From positions 1-28,972 of the IMG/VR virus record IMGVR_UViG_3300025120_000365: a stretch of DNA of 28,972 nucleotides. One strand, given 5' to 3'. Of the stretch, positions 5,179 to 17,386 are shown piece by piece. The stretch comes from a virus. The translations under genes and the position numbers were made by a program. Within the stretch, counting starts at the first letter, position 1. Each line of letters starts with the position of its first letter. The notes under the pieces are model-generated. The model had not been told where the DNA came from, ran no database searches, and worked only from the letters and a program-made list of their open reading frames with translations.

Positions 5179-6645
5179 ATGAGTTTAACTCCTCAATTTG
5201 GTAGTTTAATCCCTTCGCAGGCACAACAATTACTTGCGACTAACTACCTACAATTTAACAACGGCACAAGTGATTTTGCACAGCAATATCTGCCAGAAAT
5301 TTATGAAGCTGAAGTAGAGCGTTACGGAAATCGTACGTTATCAGGATTCTTAAAAATGGTTGGCGCTGAAATGCCAATGACAAGTGATCAAGTAATTTGG
5401 TCAGAACAAAATAGATTACACGTTTCTTACGACAACGCAACAGTAGTTGCTACAGGTGGAGCTGCTTCTAACGTTATAACCCTTCCTGCTGGAGTAACAA
5501 ATGTTATTTCTCCTAACGATACGGTTGTTATTTTAGATCCAGCAACTGGAGCTGAAGCAAAAGCTTTAGTTATTGCTAGTACACCTGGTGCAGGTGGTGG
5601 TGTTGGTCAATTCACTGTAACTCCTTTTAACAACGCTTCTTTAGAAGCTGCTGCTAATGGAATTACTGTTGGTGCTGGAATCAAAGTATTTGTATACGGT
5701 TCTGCTTACCAAAAAGGCCAATTCTTAAATTCAAGTACTGCCGCTGCTGGAGCTGCTGCTAATGGATATGTATCTATTGAACCTCAACTAACTCAATTTT
5801 CTAACTCTCCAATCATAATCAGAAGCCAATACACTGTATCTGGATCTGATATGGCTCAAATCGGATGGGTTGAAGTTGCAACTGAAGACGGTGCATCTGG
5901 ATACTTGTGGTATTTAAAAGCTGAATCTGAAACTCGTTTACGTTTTGAAGATTACTTAGAAATGGCAATGGTAGAAGGTGAGTATAACCAAATAGCTCAA
6001 GCTGGTGTACCTGCTGCTACTGGACTTGCTGGTACTGAAGGTTTATTTGCTGCTATTCAAACTCGTGGAAATGTAGAAGTAGGATTTACTGCTGCTGCTG
6101 GACTTGACGAATTTGACGGTATCCTTAAGAATTTAGACACTCAAGGTGCTATTGAAGAAAACATGTTATTCTTACAAAGACAAACATCTCTTGATTTTGA
6201 CGATATGCTAGCTGGCATCTCTGGTGGATTCGCCGGTGGAACTGCTTTTGGTTTATTTGAAAACTCAGAAGAAATGGCTTTGAATTTAGGATTTAGCGGA
6301 TTCCGTAGAGGATCTTACGATTTCTATAAGACTGACTGGAAATACTTAAACGACGCTTCTACTCGTGGAGCTATCACAGGTATTAGTTCTATCGAAGGTG
6401 TATTAGTACCAGCTGGAACTTCTACAGTTTACGATCAAGTACTAGGTACAAATATACGTCGACCATTCTTACACGTACGATACAGAGCTTCTCAAGGAGA
6501 TGACAGACGTATGAAGTCTTGGTTAACTGGTTCTGCAGGTGGAGCATTTACTTCTACTCTGGATGCTATGGAAGTAAACTTCCTGTCTGAAAGATGTTTA
6601 GTAACTCAAGCTGCTAACAACTTTGTATTATTCAAAGGAATCTAA
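5179..6645 (+). CDS. Major capsid protein, HK97-fold type
   Basis: Main shell protein of the head. The 488-residue product begins with a helical arm (residues 1-60) and a conserved-looking stretch DQVIWSEQNRLHVSY near 75-89. Next comes a Gly/Ala/Val/Thr-rich beta segment (about 90-175) that looks like an inserted surface domain. The core then resumes with YTVSGSDMAQIGWVEV and RLRFEDYLEMAMVEGEYNQ (about 218-273), a pattern I associate with HK97-fold capsid proteins of crAss-like and related marine podoviruses. Codons are more regular than in neighbours (GCT, GGA, TCT), fitting high expression. The start has an A-rich leader (AAACAAACAATTATG) 14 bases after the scaffold stop. Two hairpins follow the gene, as the T7 terminator follows its capsid gene. 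Confidence 0.88.
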   Translation: MSLTPQFGSLIPSQAQQLLATNYLQFNNGTSDFAQQYLPEIYEAEVERYGNRTLSGFLKMVGAEMPMTSDQVIWSEQNRLHVSYDNATVVATGGAASNVITLPAGVTNVISPNDTVVILDPATGAEAKALVIASTPGAGGGVGQFTVTPFNNASLEAAANGITVGAGIKVFVYGSAYQKGQFLNSSTAAAGAAANGYVSIEPQLTQFSNSPIIIRSQYTVSGSDMAQIGWVEVATEDGASGYLWYLKAESETRLRFEDYLEMAMVEGEYNQIAQAGVPAATGLAGTEGLFAAIQTRGNVEVGFTAAAGLDEFDGILKNLDTQGAIEENMLFLQRQTSLDFDDMLAGISGGFAGGTAFGLFENSEEMALNLGFSGFRRGSYDFYKTDWKYLNDASTRGAITGISSIEGVLVPAGTSTVYDQVLGTNIRRPFLHVRYRASQGDDRRMKSWLTGSAGGAFTSTLDAMEVNFLSERCLVTQAANNFVLFKGI

Positions 6646-7666: not shown

Positions 7667-8467
7667 ATGGTAAATATAAATACTGTATATAAAACAGTCC
7701 TGTACGTATTAAACAAAGAGCAGAGAGGTTATATTCCACCTGATGAATTTAATAGTTTAGCTCAACAGGTTCAGTTTGAAATATTTCAATCGTATTTTCC
7801 TGACGGAAACCAATTAAATCGTCAAAATCAAAACAATACTCAAAATGACACTGAGTTTTTTAATACGTTTAAAAACAACAGCAATAAGTTAATACCATTT
7901 GAATCAGAAATTGAATATGAGTATAATACAGTAACAAGTTATTGGGAGCCACAAGCTTCTATAGGAAACATAACGCAAGATAGTATTATTTATCTTTACG
8001 GAGATATAATAGCGACATATGCTAGCTCTTTAGTAGGAAACACTAGTCCTCAAGCCACTTCTTCTGGATTTGAATCTATCGTGCAGTTAACAACTGTGAA
8101 AGACTACAATAAAATAACTAGATCTAAACTAACTTCCCCAACATCTAGATACCCTTTAGCAACTTCTATAAGGCCATTAGATCCTATAAGCTCAAGTTCA
8201 AATTTTAAAGTGCAACCATTACCAAGCTTTTTAAGAGTAAACTGCATAATAAGTCCATCAACTCCTAAATGGGCGTTTACTATTGGTTCTCTTGGTCAAT
8301 ATTTGTTCAGTAGCGCATCTTCTCAAAACTTTTTATTAGATATATCTGAACAAAGTAATTTAATAAGTGGTATATTGAAATATGCAGGCATAGTAATTAA
8401 TGATCCTGGAATAATAGATTTAGCTTCTCAAGAAATAGCTAAAGTGCAGGCTAACGAAAAATCTTAA
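7667..8467 (+). CDS. Putative head-tail connector (ring) protein
   Basis: The 266-residue product starts with a helical segment VYKTVLYVLNKEQRGYIPPDEF (in part residues 6-27) followed by FNSLAQQVQFEIFQSYFPDG. That pattern is typical of head-completion or ring proteins between portal and tail adaptor in Bacteroidota podoviruses. An Asn/Gln-rich linker follows (about 46-70), then a beta-rich body. No catalytic motif or membrane segment is seen. The start is the ATG after a run of nine A directly behind the terminator, so a promoter must lie in or just before 7646-7666 or transcription reads through. Four bases separate it from the next gene. The role is inferred from position. Confidence 0.65.
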   Translation: MVNINTVYKTVLYVLNKEQRGYIPPDEFNSLAQQVQFEIFQSYFPDGNQLNRQNQNNTQNDTEFFNTFKNNSNKLIPFESEIEYEYNTVTSYWEPQASIGNITQDSIIYLYGDIIATYASSLVGNTSPQATSSGFESIVQLTTVKDYNKITRSKLTSPTSRYPLATSIRPLDPISSSSNFKVQPLPSFLRVNCIISPSTPKWAFTIGSLGQYLFSSASSQNFLLDISEQSNLISGILKYAGIVINDPGIIDLASQEIAKVQANEKS

Positions 8468-9704: not shown

Positions 9705-12700
9705 ATGGCTAAAGTTTTAAATACATTTTTAAAGTCCAAGATGAATAAAGACTTGGATGCTCGTATAATACCTGAAGGTGAATATAGAGACGCGCAGAAT
9801 GCTCAAATAAGCAAATCTGAATCTGCAAATGTTGGTAATTTAGAAAACGTTCTAGGTAATATAAGCATAGAAAACTTTAACACTTTAACTGGAGTTTCAG
9901 GTCTAATATGTGTAGGAGTTTTTAGTGATGAAATAAACAACACTGTTTATTTATTCTTTACAACAAATCAACAAACACAGTACGTTCCAACTGCCTCTAA
10001 TTTTATTATATCCTACAATACACTTGATAATCCAAATAGTGCCTCTAGAATATTAGTTGAAGGAGCTTTTTTAAATTTTTCAACTCAAAACCAAATATAC
10101 GGTATAAATATATTAGAAGATTTATTATTTTTTACTGATAATAGAAATCAACCTAGAGTTATAGATGTAACTCTTGCGGGAGGATCTTTTTATTCAACAG
10201 AAGACCAAATATCAGTAGCTAAATACAATCCTTACCAAGCAATAGAGTTATTTCAAAAAAACACAGAAGCCGAACAGGCTAATTCTGCACTTCCTTATGA
10301 AACTACTATGAAAGACGTTAGTAGTATTTTTCTTCCTAACGGAGGTAGTGCTGTAATTACAGACGCTAGTAGCACTTCAGATATAATAAATTTTTCTGGT
10401 TTAGTAGGTGAGATAAACGACTCTGGCTCTCCTTATGGAACTTCTGTTACTGTTGGATTAATGAACATGGTAAATAATGAGGTAAGTATTATTCCAGGTG
10501 TATCAATTACTAGTTTAAATAGTCCTACACGAATAACCTTAAGCGCTCCTATAACTTTTAGTGAAAATCAAAAAATAGTTTTTAACAAAAATCCCTTTTA
10601 TGAAGCTGATTTTGGCGGTGATCCTGATTACTTAGAAGATAGGTTTGTAAGGTTTAGTTATAGATTTAAATATCAAGACAACAGTTATTCTATATTTGCT
10701 CCATTTACACAATCAGCTTTTATACCTAAGCAAGATGGTTATTTCATGTACGCTAGTGGTGATAATCCTGCAAAAGATGATCAATCTGATTCTTATAGAA
10801 GTACAGTTGTGTCTTTTATGGAGAACAAAGTTAATAAAATTGAATTAAAAATTCCTCTCCCTTTTCCAAACTACAGCATGCAAGATGCTTTGAAGTTAAA
10901 AGAAATAGACGTTTTATACAAAGAGTCAGATGCTGTTGCGGTAAGAGTAATAGAAACAATAAAGATAGATAAAATAACAAATCAATCTTCTATAGCTTTT
11001 GTTAATGGTAATCAAACCCCTGGCGCGGCCAACACTGATATAGCTATAGATGGTGTGTTAGGTGGTATAGAAATTGGCTCTACAATCGAAGGTGTTGGAA
11101 TACCTGCTAATACTACAGTAATTAGCTTTTCACCGACAGATCCTAGTAATCCATCTTCAGGGAACATAAGATTAGATCAACCTGTACCCAACTTAGACGA
11201 TAACGTGTTATTGTTTATAAATGACATAAGATTTTTTAAATACGAATACAATTCTTCAAAGCCTACAAAAACATTACCAGAGGCTGAGTTGGTAAGAGTT
11301 TTTGACAAAACACCTGTAAGATCTTTAGCTCAAGAAGTATCAGGAAACAGAGTTATATATGGTAATTTTGAAAACAAACATACTCCACCTGAGTTTATAA
11401 ATTACAACGTTGCTGCAACTGACAAGTTATCGTTCAACTTAAATGAAATTTTTGTAGTTTACAATGGAGGTTCCGCAGTGTATCCAGCAGGAACTCCTAT
11501 AACTGTTACAATAGGTAAAACGCCAAATGGTGGTATAGGTGGTTTTTTTCCTGGCATGGTTTTAACTTGCTTTGATTACGGAGCTGTTATACCTGAAGGA
11601 ACACAGGTAACGGTTACTTCAAGCAACTCGCAAGGAGCTGCTGTTATTGGATTAGACCAAGATGTGACTTTACCAGCTGGTACTGTTACTTTTGCATTTT
11701 CACCTGGAGGATCAGTTGAAAACACATCCTCTAAAATTGAATACCCTAGCAGTTCGTTAAAAACAAATAGAAACTATCAAGTAGGATTTGTGCTGTCAGA
11801 TAGATATGGTAGACAATCTACTGTTATTTTGTCTAATAATGAAGATATAATAAAAATAAATAATATATCATACTCTGGTTCTACCCTGTACTCACCTTAC
11901 ATAGGTGAAGGCTTAGACACTGATGCTTGGCCTGGTAATTCTTTAAAAGTTTTAGTAAACGAAGCTATAGATGGAGCATCTACAGGATTGTATAACGGTG
12001 ATGTTAATAGTTTAGATTATAATCCTTTAGGTTGGTATTCTTACAAGATAGTAGTTAAACAAACTCAACAGGAATACTATAACATATATTTACCAGGTGT
12101 GATGGCTTCTTATCCAAATGATCAAGTTAAGGAATTAAATCAAACATCTCATGTTGTTTTAATAAACGACAATATTAATAAAGTGCCAAGAGATTTAAAT
12201 GAAGTTGGACCAGAGCAAAGACAGTTTAGAAGTTCAGTAAGATTATTTGGTAGAGTTCAAAACACTATTCAGTCTATTTCTGATTTAAATCCTGGTGCAT
12301 CAAATATACAGTATTATCCGGGAATATCATCTGACACTGTTTCTACTATATCAACTATCAATGATTTGTTTGAATATGATCCAAGCAAACCTCCTCAGCC
12401 AAACTATTTCCCTCAGTTTTATTCTTTAAATTCAAACCCATTAGTTGCTAGAATAACTACCGCCAACTTAATAGGTCAAGTATCAACTACTAACTACTTA
12501 CCTGGTAGTGGAGTTATTAAGACTGCTGCGCCAGTTAACGCTCCTGTTGCAACTCTTGAGATGATTACAGTAACTGGACCTATAGCTGGAAATAATGATT
12601 TAGAAGGTTACTTAATTACTGGCCCTGGAATACCTGATGAAACATACATAAGAAGCAACACTTACATAAATCAGGTGTTATCGGTAACAATAGAAGATAA

Positions 12701-15092
12701 AAATGGCGCTACAGTACCAGTTAGTGTTGAAGAAAAAGCATTAATGAGTTGGGTTAAAACAAGTAAAGCTGGTGGTCAACCTCCTTTTGAATTAGTAACA
12801 CCTGGCGTTCAGTACTTAGCTGTTTATGAAACAGAGCCATTTGAAAGCTTATTAGATCTTTATTGGGAAACTTCTTCATCTGGTTTAATATCTGATTTAA
12901 ACTCAGCTGTTTTAAATAACCAGTCAAATCCAGCAGGCGCAAGTTTAGGCCCAATAAGCACTCAAAACTTCAACGAAGGTTTAATAGAAAATGGTCAAGT
13001 TTTTACAACCGATTTTAGCTTATTAAACAGTTTTGGTACTTCTATAGCTTTAGACACAGCTGCTGGAGATAGTCTTATTTTACAATCGGCGGTTAATGGA
13101 TTAGGTGAGTCCTGTATAGGAATTGATTCACCTAGAGATTTCTTTAGATTAGAAGATACTAGTGCGGGAGGTGCTACACCTGGTATAGGTCCATGGAATA
13201 TTAGAACAACAAGTACTACGCCTCCGTACCTTGCAACTGCTGCGCAAAGTTATTGGGAAAATATGTTCTACATGAACGATGAAGATAATTCACCTCAAGG
13301 TTTTAATAGATTAAGACAGTTTACTTTTAATTTTATTGCAACAATACACGGAACTAACTCGGATGGTGATGTGGTCGCTCAAGCTACCAACATATCTATA
13401 GATGCTAATTTAGGTAATGTACCTCCAGTTTTTTATAGAATAAAGCCAAACCCAATTTTACCCATCAACTCAGGAGTTCAGTATGGGACTATTAATGGCA
13501 CAGCAATTCCAGACCCTGTAGAGTTTGAAGCAAACCCTGAGACTGAAAATTTGGTTTTTCTGCAAGCATCTAATGGTAATGCTAATATAGATCAAACTTA
13601 TAATGATATTTATTTAGGTACTAGAGATCTACAATATGAAGCAGGATCTCAAGATGTTAACATAGTATCTCAAACAATAGGTTCTATAGGTGGACAACCA
13701 GCTCAGACTTTAGATGGAGAACCCATATTTGCTATAGAGAGGTCATTCCCAGGTCAAGGCCTTCCCTATGACCCTAAATATAATAACTTTAAGCTAGTCA
13801 ACACTCAATTTAATAACACTCAATTATCTTCAACTCTTTATTTTGTAAAAGTAAGACTAAGAGATGGTGGAGCTTCTACTGAAGTCAATTTTAGAATAGA
13901 CATGCGTGTGGTTATAACGAAGGAAATGATATTCAACAGGGTTGGACAATCTGTGCCCATGAGATACTTGCAGCCTGGTAGCTTTAGTAATACAATAAGT
14001 AATTCAGGAAGGCCTTTTGTGAGTAACCGACCAATCTCAGCAGATAGTGATCAAAATCAATTGTTTGAATCAAATGGTTCGCCATATGATTTAGCAGGTT
14101 GGGATGCAAACCATAGAAGTCAATTGTATCCTTTTACGTGTTTTTATTTACCAACAGGAACACCTGGATTAGGTTTTGGTGGAGATGGTTTTTACGCTTA
14201 CGCTGGAGGATTTTTTGACACAGAGCTTGAAGCAAGTTGTAATAATGTTGCAGGTGCTTCTAAGTCTCTAGTTAATTACTATGGAGCAGGTAACGATATA
14301 GTTATACCTAGATTCTCACCAAACTCACAAGGTCATCAATGCCAAACTAATATTAGAATTATTGATGGCGGTTTAGTCAATAGTACTTTTAGAAGACCTC
14401 CTTATGTTAAAGGATATATGACTATAACTAAAATACCAGGAACCCAAGGACTCACTACGTCTCAAGTTCAAGTAGACCCAGCTAGTGCTCAATTCCCTGG
14501 TTTTGTACCTAAAAGAGGTATGAGATGTTACGCTAGAGACTGGATTAAGTGGAATTTTAATAGGGATTTAGGTAGACCATACGATTTAGATCTTGGCATC
14601 TCTCGAGGAACAAGATACCCGCAGAGAATTCAATCATACAATCAATCAACAGGGGTTATAACTTTTCAAAACCCAGTGATTTCTGGGGTCGGTCCTGCTG
14701 GTTCTCAAAACTTAAACAATGGAGACGATACTATAAGTCGCTGGGAGGTGGGAGACGATCTTAATTTCTTTAATGGTCTACCTTCTGAAGCGAATCCTTG
14801 GTTTTTCGCTAACAATTTTGAGGAACTAATGCAGATGTTATTATGGAGCGAGTGGGGGCCTGGGTTTTGGTACCAAGGTGGATTGTGGGATAAAAATCTA
14901 ACTAATGATCCCAATTACCCAGACAACGAGTTTTATGGTGTTAATTTTGGTCCACCGGCATGCGACCCAATAAACGCAACGATTTATAATTGGTCTTTGG
15001 CTGAAGCGGGCACAGGGAATTGTGGCGAGTTTTTAGGTGTACCTTCTCAACCGGATTTTGCAACAGGAGACTTTACGTTTTCATTCATATAA
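9705..15092 (+). CDS. Giant tail nozzle (gp12/gp10-like, muzzle) protein
   Basis: The 1795-residue beta-rich structural protein likely forms the distal tail tube. The N-terminus (MNKDLDARIIPEGEYRDAQN) followed by SANVGNLENVLGN resembles the start of T7 gp12/P22 gp10-type nozzles, where an N-terminal strand feeds a beta-propeller. Inserted along it are small beta modules with the pattern G-x-x-I-x-G-x-GIP-x-x-T-x-V-x-S: clearest at residues about 426-508, weaker at 584-668 and 945-1019, possibly at 218-297. An Ig- or cadherin-like stretch lies near 1200-1400. The last 120 residues are rich in Trp, aromatic residues and Cys (WSEWGPGFWYQGGLW). It is more than twice the T7 nozzle and may include receptor-binding functions, since no separate tail fibre is seen here. 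Its ATG follows AAAATTAA, six bases behind the adaptor. Confidence 0.7.
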   Translation: MAKVLNTFLKSKMNKDLDARIIPEGEYRDAQNAQISKSESANVGNLENVLGNISIENFNTLTGVSGLICVGVFSDEINNTVYLFFTTNQQTQYVPTASNFIISYNTLDNPNSASRILVEGAFLNFSTQNQIYGINILEDLLFFTDNRNQPRVIDVTLAGGSFYSTEDQISVAKYNPYQAIELFQKNTEAEQANSALPYETTMKDVSSIFLPNGGSAVITDASSTSDIINFSGLVGEINDSGSPYGTSVTVGLMNMVNNEVSIIPGVSITSLNSPTRITLSAPITFSENQKIVFNKNPFYEADFGGDPDYLEDRFVRFSYRFKYQDNSYSIFAPFTQSAFIPKQDGYFMYASGDNPAKDDQSDSYRSTVVSFMENKVNKIELKIPLPFPNYSMQDALKLKEIDVLYKESDAVAVRVIETIKIDKITNQSSIAFVNGNQTPGAANTDIAIDGVLGGIEIGSTIEGVGIPANTTVISFSPTDPSNPSSGNIRLDQPVPNLDDNVLLFINDIRFFKYEYNSSKPTKTLPEAELVRVFDKTPVRSLAQEVSGNRVIYGNFENKHTPPEFINYNVAATDKLSFNLNEIFVVYNGGSAVYPAGTPITVTIGKTPNGGIGGFFPGMVLTCFDYGAVIPEGTQVTVTSSNSQGAAVIGLDQDVTLPAGTVTFAFSPGGSVENTSSKIEYPSSSLKTNRNYQVGFVLSDRYGRQSTVILSNNEDIIKINNISYSGSTLYSPYIGEGLDTDAWPGNSLKVLVNEAIDGASTGLYNGDVNSLDYNPLGWYSYKIVVKQTQQEYYNIYLPGVMASYPNDQVKELNQTSHVVLINDNINKVPRDLNEVGPEQRQFRSSVRLFGRVQNTIQSISDLNPGASNIQYYPGISSDTVSTISTINDLFEYDPSKPPQPNYFPQFYSLNSNPLVARITTANLIGQVSTTNYLPGSGVIKTAAPVNAPVATLEMITVTGPIAGNNDLEGYLITGPGIPDETYIRSNTYINQVLSVTIEDKNGATVPVSVEEKALMSWVKTSKAGGQPPFELVTPGVQYLAVYETEPFESLLDLYWETSSSGLISDLNSAVLNNQSNPAGASLGPISTQNFNEGLIENGQVFTTDFSLLNSFGTSIALDTAAGDSLILQSAVNGLGESCIGIDSPRDFFRLEDTSAGGATPGIGPWNIRTTSTTPPYLATAAQSYWENMFYMNDEDNSPQGFNRLRQFTFNFIATIHGTNSDGDVVAQATNISIDANLGNVPPVFYRIKPNPILPINSGVQYGTINGTAIPDPVEFEANPETENLVFLQASNGNANIDQTYNDIYLGTRDLQYEAGSQDVNIVSQTIGSIGGQPAQTLDGEPIFAIERSFPGQGLPYDPKYNNFKLVNTQFNNTQLSSTLYFVKVRLRDGGASTEVNFRIDMRVVITKEMIFNRVGQSVPMRYLQPGSFSNTISNSGRPFVSNRPISADSDQNQLFESNGSPYDLAGWDANHRSQLYPFTCFYLPTGTPGLGFGGDGFYAYAGGFFDTELEASCNNVAGASKSLVNYYGAGNDIVIPRFSPNSQGHQCQTNIRIIDGGLVNSTFRRPPYVKGYMTITKIPGTQGLTTSQVQVDPASAQFPGFVPKRGMRCYARDWIKWNFNRDLGRPYDLDLGISRGTRYPQRIQSYNQSTGVITFQNPVISGVGPAGSQNLNNGDDTISRWEVGDDLNFFNGLPSEANPWFFANNFEELMQMLLWSEWGPGFWYQGGLWDKNLTNDPNYPDNEFYGVNFGPPACDPINATIYNWSLAEAGTGNCGEFLGVPSQPDFATGDFTFSFI

Positions 15093-15126
15093 TGTAATAT
15101 ATAAAAAAAATAAGTAATAATCAACC

Positions 15127-16857
15127 ATGGCAGGAGCTCAAATAGAAGTAAAGTACTTTAATACATTTCTACTAAAAAAAGTAAGCACGACAGGTACTGT
15201 CGCTCAAGGTGAAATAATATACAATGGATCTTTTGGCGTGCCAGGTGAAGCGCTTGTTGGTGGTATTCAAGGTGGTTACCCTGTTTTATTAAATCAGAAT
15301 AACGTCAACAGTTGGGTAATAGAAGAGTCTAGAATTAGAGGCGGATACAACAATACTTCTGTGGATTTTGGTGCAAAAGCGTATTTAATAGAAAACGAAC
15401 CTAGTGGTGTTAGAAGGTTTAATACATTGATATATTCAGGTATATTTAATTCAAAAACCGGAATAAACAAGACTAATGTTTTCTCAGTAGGCACAGATAT
15501 AACTAAATCCGCAGATCCTGCAAATGGTTCTATTCAAAAACTATACGCAGAAGATACTAATTTAAATGTTTTTCAAGAACTAAAAGTTAGTAGAGCATTA
15601 ATAGATAAAGACGCTATATATTCAGCAGAAGGAGGAGGTACAGTTACAGCTAGTAATTTAGTTATAGGTGTTATACAGCCTATTTTAGGTAAGTATGGTA
15701 TTTCTCAAAATCCAGAAAGTTTTGCTATATACGGTAATAGAAAGTATTTTTCAGATAAAAACAACAACGCAATTCTTAGGCTGTCAGGAGGATCCATAGA
15801 AGAAATATCTTCACTAGGAATGAAAGACTTTTTTAGAGATAACATAAATAGAGTTAATACAGCTCAAGGGTTAGGTAAAATACTTGGCGCGTATGATATA
15901 TACACCAGTGAGTATGTTACTTCTTTACAATTCAGCAGTAACTCTATAAACGAAGACGATGGTTTTGTTACTTTAAGCTTTGACGAGAGAGCTAAAGGTT
16001 GGCCTAGTTTTTTCAGCTATCAACCAGACCAAATGTTTAGTTTAAGAAATAACTTTTATTCAGTTAAAACTAGCGATCTTGGTGTTGCTCAATTATGGAG
16101 ACATAATAGCACTCAAGTTAACAGAGGTAGTTTTTATGGAGAAAATCACAGAACATCTATTACTTTCGTGCTAAACCCAATGCCTACTAATTCTAAAACA
16201 TTTAAAACTATAGGCTATCAAGGTAGCAACGGATGGGAGGTAAATAGTATGGTTTCTGATTCAACCGGAACTGTATACAACAACAACAATAGTTTCTCTG
16301 TATTATCATTAGACAGTATTTCTCAAATAAAAAGTTATACTGAAGGAGAGTACGTTGTAACAGAAGGATCTGGAAATAGTTTATCTGCTTCTAGTTTAAC
16401 TACGGTCTCATTAGATGTAAATAGCGTTAACGGTGTAATAAGAGCTGGAGACTCTGTTAGTGGTGTTGGAGTTGATGGCGGAACAACAGTTGTTAGTTAT
16501 GATGCGGGTAATGGAGATTTAGTAGTAAACTTACTTTTTAATAATTTACTAGCAAACACGTTACTTAGTTTTACAGGAGCTGTTACAAGAGTTGAGTACA
16601 GCACAGTTTTTGGGAACAATATACCAGGACTACCTAGATATTATGCTGGTTTTAATTTAAAAGAAAATAAGTATGTTTCTAATGTTACAAACAATTCTTT
16701 AGCTTCGAACGGTGAAGTTGTGTTTGGAGACTCTGTAGGTGGTATAAAAGGTTATTATTCAACAGTTACAATGTCAACTGAGTTAACAACTGATCTTGGT
16801 GGTGAAAAAACGTTATTTTCTGTAGAAAGTTTTTATGACGTAAACAATGGTTATTAA
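15127..16857 (+). CDS. Tail structural protein, nozzle-associated
   Basis: The 576-residue product is beta-rich and soluble, directly after the nozzle gene. Residues 190-240 contain ILGKYGISQNPESFAIYGNR and YFSDKNNNAILRLSGGSIEE, the repeated blade style of beta-propellers in nozzle and stabilisation proteins. Residues 280-350 include SFDERAKGWPSFFSYQPDQM and HRTSITFVLNPMP, which look like a folded core rather than a fibre. Residues about 416-484 carry one copy of the beta module found in the neighbouring nozzle (AGDSVSGVGVDGGTTVVSY). With the gene before it, this could represent a nozzle split into two chains, or a muzzle-binding protein. The leader TAAGTAATAATCAACC has no Shine-Dalgarno. No enzymatic motif is visible. 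Confidence 0.65.
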   Translation: MAGAQIEVKYFNTFLLKKVSTTGTVAQGEIIYNGSFGVPGEALVGGIQGGYPVLLNQNNVNSWVIEESRIRGGYNNTSVDFGAKAYLIENEPSGVRRFNTLIYSGIFNSKTGINKTNVFSVGTDITKSADPANGSIQKLYAEDTNLNVFQELKVSRALIDKDAIYSAEGGGTVTASNLVIGVIQPILGKYGISQNPESFAIYGNRKYFSDKNNNAILRLSGGSIEEISSLGMKDFFRDNINRVNTAQGLGKILGAYDIYTSEYVTSLQFSSNSINEDDGFVTLSFDERAKGWPSFFSYQPDQMFSLRNNFYSVKTSDLGVAQLWRHNSTQVNRGSFYGENHRTSITFVLNPMPTNSKTFKTIGYQGSNGWEVNSMVSDSTGTVYNNNNSFSVLSLDSISQIKSYTEGEYVVTEGSGNSLSASSLTTVSLDVNSVNGVIRAGDSVSGVGVDGGTTVVSYDAGNGDLVVNLLFNNLLANTLLSFTGAVTRVEYSTVFGNNIPGLPRYYAGFNLKENKYVSNVTNNSLASNGEVVFGDSVGGIKGYYSTVTMSTELTTDLGGEKTLFSVESFYDVNNGY

Positions 16858-16867
16858 ATTTAATTAA

Positions 16868-17386
16868 ATGGAACAATCTTTAATAGATAAAAAAATCAAT
16901 GAAGATCTTCAAAGAATAAATCATTTTAGAGACAATATAATGAAATTTGAAGAGCAGCTAGTAAACTTACCAGGTTCTTATGGTGATCCAAACAAACCAG
17001 GACAAGACAAGGTTGCTAACGCAATTAATCCACTTAAGCATACATTTGTGGATGGATTATATATTAGAGAAATATTTATGCCTAAAGGTCAAATAATTTC
17101 TACCGGTATACATAAAAAAGAACATACTTATTTCATACTTAAAGGTAAGGTGTCTGTGTTAACAGAGAACGGTATAGAACAGTTTAAAGCTCCTTATAAT
17201 GGCATAACACAACCTGGGACTAAAAGATTAATATACATACATCAAGACACTATATGGACAACTGTACATGCTACAGGTAAAAATAACGTTGAAGATGTTA
17301 TGAAAGAAATAATAGCAGAGGACTTTGATGATCCGCTTATCAGTATAGAAGTTATGCATGATAAGTTAAAATTAAAAAATAAATAA
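16868..17386 (+). CDS. Cupin-like protein
   Basis: The 172-residue product has a helical N-terminus (1-35) and a single double-stranded beta-helix-like domain (about 55-150). The segment GIHKKEHTYFILKGKVSV supplies H82 and H86 in a cupin-1-like arrangement, followed by GTKRLIYIH (H125) and TTVH (H134) as possible further metal ligands. The fit to the textbook cupin motif is loose (HxxxH rather than HxH), so metal binding and catalysis are uncertain. Lying between tail and ejection genes with 10- and 1-base spacing, it may be a structural or decoration protein built on a cupin fold rather than a metabolic enzyme. The ATG follows TTTAATTAA. Confidence 0.6.
   Translation: MEQSLIDKKINEDLQRINHFRDNIMKFEEQLVNLPGSYGDPNKPGQDKVANAINPLKHTFVDGLYIREIFMPKGQIISTGIHKKEHTYFILKGKVSVLTENGIEQFKAPYNGITQPGTKRLIYIHQDTIWTTVHATGKNNVEDVMKEIIAEDFDDPLISIEVMHDKLKLKNK

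Follow-up and report, generated by a model that had tools for sequence, protein, structure and literature searches.

A small beta domain probably inserted repeatedly into the muzzle proteins of a marine crAss-like phage clade

Introduction

The virus record IMGVR_UViG_3300025120_000365, analysed here as one stretch of 28,972 bases (hereafter the window), has on its plus strand a gene order like that of a crAss-like phage, as compared with Cellulophaga phage phi38:1; its first two open reading frames (ORFs) presumably encode the terminase and the portal, as named by reading only. Two successive genes farther along encode tail proteins in which an earlier reading of the letters alone (the sequence-only reading) had seen a 19-residue beta motif, three times in the first protein and once in the second, and had proposed a mobile module, perhaps serving surface adhesion. 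The two genes are:

9705..15092, plus strand: nozzle protein, 1795 residues, the N-terminal part of a Crassvirales muzzle, with four module copies
15127..16857, plus strand: 576-residue protein (muzzle-C), the C-terminal part of a Crassvirales muzzle

In this study we ask whether the repeat is real, how large its unit is, whether copies have been inserted, and what they could do at the tail tip. The results make it probable that a self-contained beta domain of 65-80 residues has been inserted repeatedly into the muzzle proteins of a marine crAss-like clade.

Results

A repeated domain in two tail proteins

All four segments quoted by the sequence-only reading are present, at nozzle residues 457-475 (n1), 617-635 (n2, earlier placed at 613-631) and 968-982 (n3, earlier placed at 967-981), and at residues 440-458 of the 576-residue protein (T). 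The close alignment it had reported between n1 and T is borne out. Their local alignment has a score of 75, reached by none of 2000 shuffles, and BLASTP without composition correction finds the pair among the 15 window proteins at E 2.5e-4 with 24% identity, a divergence that excludes a recent duplication inside the window. A profile of the T site alone (24 sequences) finds the n1 copy in the nozzle with 25.2 bits (E 1.1e-8), and reciprocally a profile of the n1 site alone (44 sequences) finds the T copy with 26.1 bits (E 6e-9). The five other segment pairs are insignificant when compared pairwise, 197 to 1890 of 2000 shuffles reaching their scores.

The repeated unit is not the 19-residue motif but a larger domain of 65-80 residues, found at four sites in the nozzle and one in the 576-residue protein; the four copies listed earlier are among these, and a fifth, at nozzle residues 214-294 and the most doubtful by fold, had been missed. 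A sixth site is empty in the window:

10344..10586, plus strand: s1 (nozzle residues 214-294), divergent copy, the least certain by fold, at the place of IG1 in crAss001
10989..11225, plus strand: s2 (nozzle residues 429-507), site of n1
11475..11687, plus strand: s3 (nozzle residues 591-661), site of n2
12507..12689, plus strand: s4 (nozzle residues 935-995), site of n3, the weakest score
16366..16593, plus strand: T (residues 414-489 of the 576-residue protein), site of the segment in the second protein
16069..16089, plus strand: T0 (residues 315-321 of the 576-residue protein), sixth site, empty in the window

A profile built without the window recovers the five copies among the 15 window proteins, two very strongly, namely s2 (437-507, E 8.6e-16) and T (414-483 of muzzle-C, 5.7e-13), and three weakly, namely s3 (591-661, 4.3e-7), s1 (214-294, 3e-6) and s4 (936-995, 6.9e-5). 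The comparison of the copies through a profile, which the sequence-only reading had proposed as a check, therefore yields significant scores from 6.9e-5 to 8.6e-16. For its two weaker nozzle copies the outcome is divided: the iterated profile finds both, pairwise comparison and the profile before iteration do not, and s4 passes narrowly. Indeed, the best of 500 shuffled nozzles scores 12.5 bits (the second 6.6) and the s4 copy (936-995) 13.2 bits, so that it barely clears the control. One of the numbered loci and contigs compared with the window (L-numbers), L145, has clear module copies at all four nozzle sites, s1 included, which supports the assignment of the sites. The status of s1, s3 and s4 as probable module copies thus depends on the iterated profile, that of s4 only narrowly.

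The iterated profile was run on the 15 window ORFs and on 2456 distinct ORFs from 160 related viral loci. At E <= 0.05 it picked out 455 stretches, of which 386 lie in nozzles, 65 in muzzle-C proteins, three in homologues of the window ORF 7667-8467 and one in a 67-residue reverse-strand ORF. No reversed-protein decoy passed E 0.05, and no match at this threshold was found in the other 13 window ORFs. One segment of the capsid protein looks like the motif on inspection but was rejected, its profile match not being significant.

Occupied and empty sites among homologues

From 161 nozzle and 141 muzzle-C homologous ORFs, those that were complete, non-identical, matching from near the N-terminus and above 150 summed bits were aligned, giving 116 and 106 rows (117 and 107 with the window), onto which 406 profile matches map. 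At the module regions of these alignments the homologues differ by whole units. The sites are flanked by conserved sequence and measure 0-31 residues when empty, 74-128 with one copy and 137-181 when double; the classes were cut by length at 45 and 135 residues, and at 50 for T0.

The site s2 is empty in 48 of the 117 nozzle rows (7-14 residues) and filled in 69 (75-93 residues), and the profile matches all 69 filled rows and none of the 48 empty ones. At s3, 13 rows are empty, 95 have the length of one copy (91 with a match) and nine are double (eight with a match); at s4 the corresponding numbers are 20, 66 (64 with a match) and 31 (27 with a match, 25 of them with two). Only three rows are empty at s1, where 112 have the length of one copy and 46 of these match the profile. 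Among the 107 muzzle-C rows, T is empty in 61, of one-copy length in 33 (all 33 with a match) and double in 13 (all 13 with a match, six with two); every filled row at T has a profile match and no empty row has one.

T0 is empty in 96 of the 107 rows and filled in 11, ten of which match the profile. In the window it reads NFYSVKTSDLGVAQLWRH; sequences read directly show the insert between NFYSVK and LWRH in L151, L126, L121, L160 and L002, and an empty site in the window and in L081, L084 and L085. This insertion is clean and is seen in close relatives. The domain is thus present or absent at orthologous sites with conserved flanks, as expected of one that is inserted recurrently. The closest pair differing in presence and absence, L135 and L138, is 81% identical over 1352 residues and differs by a single 66-residue block at s3.

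The two proteins as parts of one muzzle

Nozzle residues 6-193 match positions 3-189 of the profile phrog_14478 (E 1e-36), and the 576-residue protein matches another part of it, positions 921-1222 of 1474. The latter protein also has the Pfam domain crAss_MUZ_C, the Crassvirus muzzle C-terminal domain (E 1.8e-9, 38.3 bits against a cut-off of 27), and its predicted model matches the solved muzzle of phicrAss001, 7qol_P, by Foldseek (E 6.6e-11) and by VIA (Z 15.7 over 275 residues, root-mean-square deviation (rmsd) 3.0). A profile of nozzle homologues matches gp97 of phi38:1 and proteins of elemoC, Gundel, Manatee and Panino, and weakly gp44 of crAss001. Considering the two parts of phrog_14478, crAss_MUZ_C, the fold match with 7qol_P and the single-gene muzzles found elsewhere (one ORF in phi38:1, elemoC, Gundel, the Manatee Spring phage and crAss001), the nozzle and the 576-residue protein are parts of one tail-tip assembly, the Crassvirales muzzle, which in the window is encoded by two ORFs rather than made as one polypeptide. 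The named relatives, all below 60% identity, are Cellulophaga phi38:1, the Flavobacterium elemo phages, Maribacter Panino, Tenacibaculum Gundel and the Manatee Spring environmental record; apart from this last record they are phages of flavobacterial hosts.

No fused ORF was found in the 140 related loci having both genes (a count that includes duplicates of one contig), and the gap between the genes is 17-100 bases in 130 of them and 431-502 in the other ten. The muzzle of Panino is also split, at another place than that of the window. The first ~63 residues of muzzle-C (IEVKYFNTF..., window 15127-15315) precede the first profile match to any single-gene muzzle and are largely conserved throughout the split clade; they are possibly an adaptation to the gene split. 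An N-terminal motif common to both muzzle genes is unsupported (hhalign probability 3.8%).

Predicted fold of the module

AlphaFold was run on 61-row alignments, and the modules were compared by strand order read against the sequence. The model of the 576-residue protein has its highest confidence at the T module, with block means of the predicted local distance difference test (pLDDT) of 94-97 at residues 411-490, and s2 has block means of 94-97 in the nozzle model. The strands of T, s2 and s3 are predicted in identical order. Structure prediction, the second check proposed earlier, hence points to a small beta domain, predicted with confidence at T and s2 and probably a barrel at s2.

By VIA, the s2 model is closest to residues 480-556 of a baseplate chain of phage JBD30, 8rk3_b (Z 8.7, rmsd 2.1, 70 residues), followed by the tail tube of phage Mystique (Z 7.8), residues 91-169 of the T5 Dit protein pb9 (Z 6.9) and many EF-Tu-type chains (Z about 6-6.5). 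The EF-Tu range matched is what we take to be domain 2, a barrel. This likeness to the oligonucleotide/oligosaccharide-binding (OB) fold and to EF-Tu domain 2 was obtained with the s2 model, and a Z below 8 can mean a common arrangement. Foldseek found nothing in the PDB at E <= 0.001 with the nozzle fragment model, and the BFVD matches of that model were left unused, being mixed viral proteins with most of the model aligned and poor template modelling (TM) scores. Part of the s1 model resembles a capsid chain of phage VP1 (Z 6.4) and the lambda tail tip (Z 5.7). In crAss001 the domain IG1 lies between propeller blades 2 and 3, at residues 163-292 (PMC10172136).

Composition of the module

The best-conserved positions of the module are G28 (87%), V42 (78%), G33 (72%), F68 (72%) and G23 (70%); D70 (72%) was left uncounted as an end column reached by few copies. 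No conserved aromatic, charged or histidine position was found in the module. In comparison with the rest of the same proteins, the modules are depleted in Trp (0.1/0.9%), His (0.0/0.4%), Arg (0.6/2.7%) and Tyr (1.5/5.5%), and also in Lys and Glu.

Direction and movement of the copies

The homologue profile was aligned to the named muzzles and its positions were converted to window residues. Between the matches flanking s1, about 130-145 residues of the window correspond to 13 in phi38:1, 16 in elemoC, 23 in Gundel and 33 in the Manatee Spring phage. Around s2 the outgroups have 46 residues in phi38:1 (150 in the window), 12 in elemoC (90), 41 in Gundel (145) and four in Manatee (83). Both sites are too short for a module in all four single-gene outgroups, and since none has room for it, s1 and s2 were most simply filled inside the lineage of the window, as far as these alignments tell. 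The surroundings of s3 measure 28 residues in phi38:1 (122 in the window) and 26 in Gundel (120). At the T site there is a profile match in Panino, with an independent E value (iE) of 3e-6, and a marginal one in phi38:1 (0.0041), so that the copy at T may be older.

Relationships among copies were examined with 308 copies of more than 50 residues at E < 1e-5. Among the top 100 cross-site pairs, six join copies of the same genome against 0.92 expected. The best cross-site pair of all lies within L118 and scores 211, the next 167; this locus has two near-copies, at s3 and at a private site. For the s3 copy of L058 the most similar sequence is the copy of L006 at s3, followed by T copies of other genomes. 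With one FastTree tree for each gene, built from the conserved regions and with no support testing, the minimum number of changes is six for s2, nine for s3, 12 for s4, eight for T and six for T0.

The module in other proteins

Three homologues of ORF 7667-8467, a third virion protein, carry the module. In L043 and L052 it lies at one common site, where the other rows have fewer than 10 residues and the window none (127 homologues and the window); in L120 it lies at a different site. The proposal that a beta module is mobile and has entered tail proteins several times thus gains support from presence and absence at fixed sites, doubling, this third virion protein and the modest same-genome enrichment.

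Related stretches also occur in other phage proteins, in L168 (with a major tail protein match) and L191 (with a virion structural protein match). The viral contigs L170-L184 encode a protein with two consecutive module-like stretches; L173, the one member submitted to a family search, has amidase and structural protein family matches. Large bacterial ORFs contain further related stretches (L193-L196); they come from Chryseobacterium, from two Verrucomicrobia, with Brevifollis counted as a verrucomicrobium, and from a proteobacterial metagenome-assembled genome. The search in other genes and phages that had been suggested therefore also finds the module beyond the two proteins.

No Pfam or NCBIfam model covers the module, the matches being scattered, weak and limited to one or two members each, and PHROG and PDB sequence searches with it likewise gave scattered weak matches and no covering family. 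At E <= 0.1, 39 module members match 11 Pfam families, BACON not among them. PDB sequence profile searches with both protein alignments gave nothing at E 10, and a tblastn search of the named phages with two individual copies as queries, low in sensitivity, found none. None of the titles listed by our searches of a library of open papers names a recurring muzzle module.

Discussion

Our best reading is that the module is a promiscuous structural domain, apparently uncatalogued, that decorates the tail tip. A beta domain, probably a small barrel, would repeatedly have entered loops of the muzzle proteins by in-frame insertion. Recombination between phages would have spread the copies, helped at times by copying from one site to another of the same genome; on tail-tip loops the copies would alter the outer surface and the packing of domains, and so might tune how the tail tip meets the host envelope, without a dedicated receptor-binding role for every copy. 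We prefer such a decoration domain, acting on tail-tip surface and packing, to a dedicated adhesin, because conserved glycines and hydrophobic residues are the signature of a fold without an evident ligand site.

Several observations weigh against repeated insertion. At s1, 66 of the 112 filled rows have no profile match, so that much of this site is occupied by sequence invisible to the profile, and since s1 takes the place of IG1 of crAss001 it may be an Ig-like (immunoglobulin-like) domain; none of 39 modules has a Pfam Ig-like match, and the absence of Ig domains from the VIA list of s2, which is led by other domains, is no evidence on this point. Before iteration the three weak copies were insignificant (iE 0.036, 0.037 and 0.0062), and a module composition high in Thr, Val and Gly makes spurious matches more likely among them. 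The block that distinguishes L135 from L138 is not recognised by the module profile (iE 0.099), and the pair therefore illustrates the behaviour of the site and not that of the module. Two of the four outgroups have s3 occupied, elemoC by an insertion of ~300 residues and Manatee by a filled stretch, neither with a module match. Same-site pairs have a mean score of 70 against 42 for cross-site pairs between genomes and 44 within one, and for only 27 of the 308 copies does the closest one lie at a different site; with same-site copies the more alike, occupancy is mostly inherited within clades, as judged from sequence. Finally, the exposure of the module on the virion, its function and the mechanism of recombination are matters that we infer.

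Could each copy instead be an adhesion domain that binds a host glycan or another surface ligand? The module sits in a tail-tip protein, the s2 model resembles T5 Dit pb9 91-169, whose extension has been called an OB-fold (PMC7291167), and related stretches occur in the large bacterial ORFs. We nevertheless consider this rather unlikely: the module lacks a conserved aromatic, charged or histidine position, is poor in Trp, His, Arg and Tyr and is best conserved at glycines and hydrophobic residues, three homologues of another virion protein have it too, and the structure closest to it is probably the barrel to which the JBD30 paper attributes stabilisation of a baseplate. That parallel leads to a serious rival, in which the domains brace neighbouring muzzle domains or subunits, with more copies where the assembly around them is larger. 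According to the JBD30 paper, a small six-stranded barrel in the hub of that phage has such a role, and 8rk3_b 480-556 probably represents this barrel; the conservation of the module is solely of structural type. Single copies, however, are often cleanly absent with their flanks conserved, which indicates that assembly does not, as a rule, require the copy at any one of s2, s3, s4, T and T0, and we regard bracing as possible though doubtful.

A repeat internal to the ancestral muzzle, differentially lost and not mobile, would account for the greater likeness of same-site copies, for trees that need just 6-12 changes per site and for the T-site matches in Panino and, marginally, phi38:1. It fits poorly with s1 and s2 being unfilled in four of four single-gene outgroups and s3 in two of four, with the near-copies of L118 and the 27 copies nearest to a copy at another site, and with the site of L043 and L052 being empty in all other aligned homologues of that protein; we hold it improbable. 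Chance or convergent likeness of threonine- and glycine-rich beta sequence could draw on the skewed composition and on the insignificant pairwise scores of n2 and n3. The n1/T shuffles, the reciprocal profiles and the lack of any passing reversed decoy lead us to reject it for s2 and T, and the identical strand order predicted at high confidence in T, s2 and s3 and the confinement of matches to filled rows speak against it as well, making it highly improbable overall. Recurrent insertion of a structural domain thus remains the reading we prefer. A bolder form of it, which we judge unlikely, sees the tail tip as a plug-in platform. A dedicated, uncatalogued beta cassette would be copied from one fixed loop position to another in the two muzzle genes and one neighbouring virion gene, and would also pass from phage to phage; host contact would change combinatorially as the number and placement of tail-tip domains vary among relatives.

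The closest solved system is gp44 of crAss001 (7QOK/7QOL), which belongs to the same muzzle family by crAss_MUZ_C and by fold; it is one chain of 1371 residues with no module match at E 0.1, whereas the muzzle of the window has two genes and five copies. Muzzle length is known to vary through insertions into the crass and IG2 domains of the crAss001 muzzle, and the sections of that paper drawn on here leave them as length variation and describe no recurring muzzle module (PMC10172136). At s2, s3, s4, T and T0, most of the length variation turns out to consist of copies of one domain that relatives have or lack. The evolution of the tail tip can thereby be followed at each site separately, and deleting one copy becomes a test of what it does. 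A module model would help annotation, as no Pfam or NCBIfam model covers the domain and it occurs in other phage virion proteins.

Other small beta domains offer partial parallels. Ig-like and BACON domains are likewise found in phage tail-associated proteins, in tandem copies and with horizontal transfer; BACON repeats are known in crAss-like phages (PMC6949934), as is domain mosaicism and shuffling in phage tail proteins (PMC10684548), but no Pfam Ig-like or BACON match was found in 39 modules. The JBD30 baseplate, T5 Dit pb9 and the Mystique tail tube (identified from its chain title) align with the s2 model over 66-70 residues at rmsd 2.1-2.3 and Z 6.9-8.7, and the JBD30 and T5 domains are described as barrel or OB in their papers (T5: PMC7291167); identity is 9-16%, and the likeness is structural, with no sequence relation shown. 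The I-domain in the E-loop of the crassvirus capsid likewise puts a beta-barrel into a structural-protein loop and is widespread among Crassvirales (PMC10172136), whereas the capsid protein of the window has no significant match to the module profile.

Neighbouring genes and other inserts

In the window, the capsid protein (5179-6645) has at residues ~76-175 the stretch where crassviruses have the I-domain barrel (PMC10172136); the module profile has no significant match to this stretch. The profile of ORF 7667-8467 homologues is strong on flavobacterial phages and weak on crAss001 (iE 0.0088 at the place of gp34 and 0.0073 at that of an endonuclease gene), and a guess from gene position would make this ORF a tail ring protein. 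Among its ten long homologues, seven (L105, L106, L110, L139, L140, L144 and L155) have another insert of ~53-68 residues, which goes unrecognised by the module profile and in several of them includes GTGY- or GSGY-like motifs. A GGTGY stretch is also found inside the T region of L077, and inserts of the GTGY/GSGY type may be a second movable unit. The 172-residue protein encoded after the muzzle (window 16868-17386) matches phrog_12032, a short tail fiber protein (E 8.6e-32), and also phrog_24280, a tail fiber adhesin.

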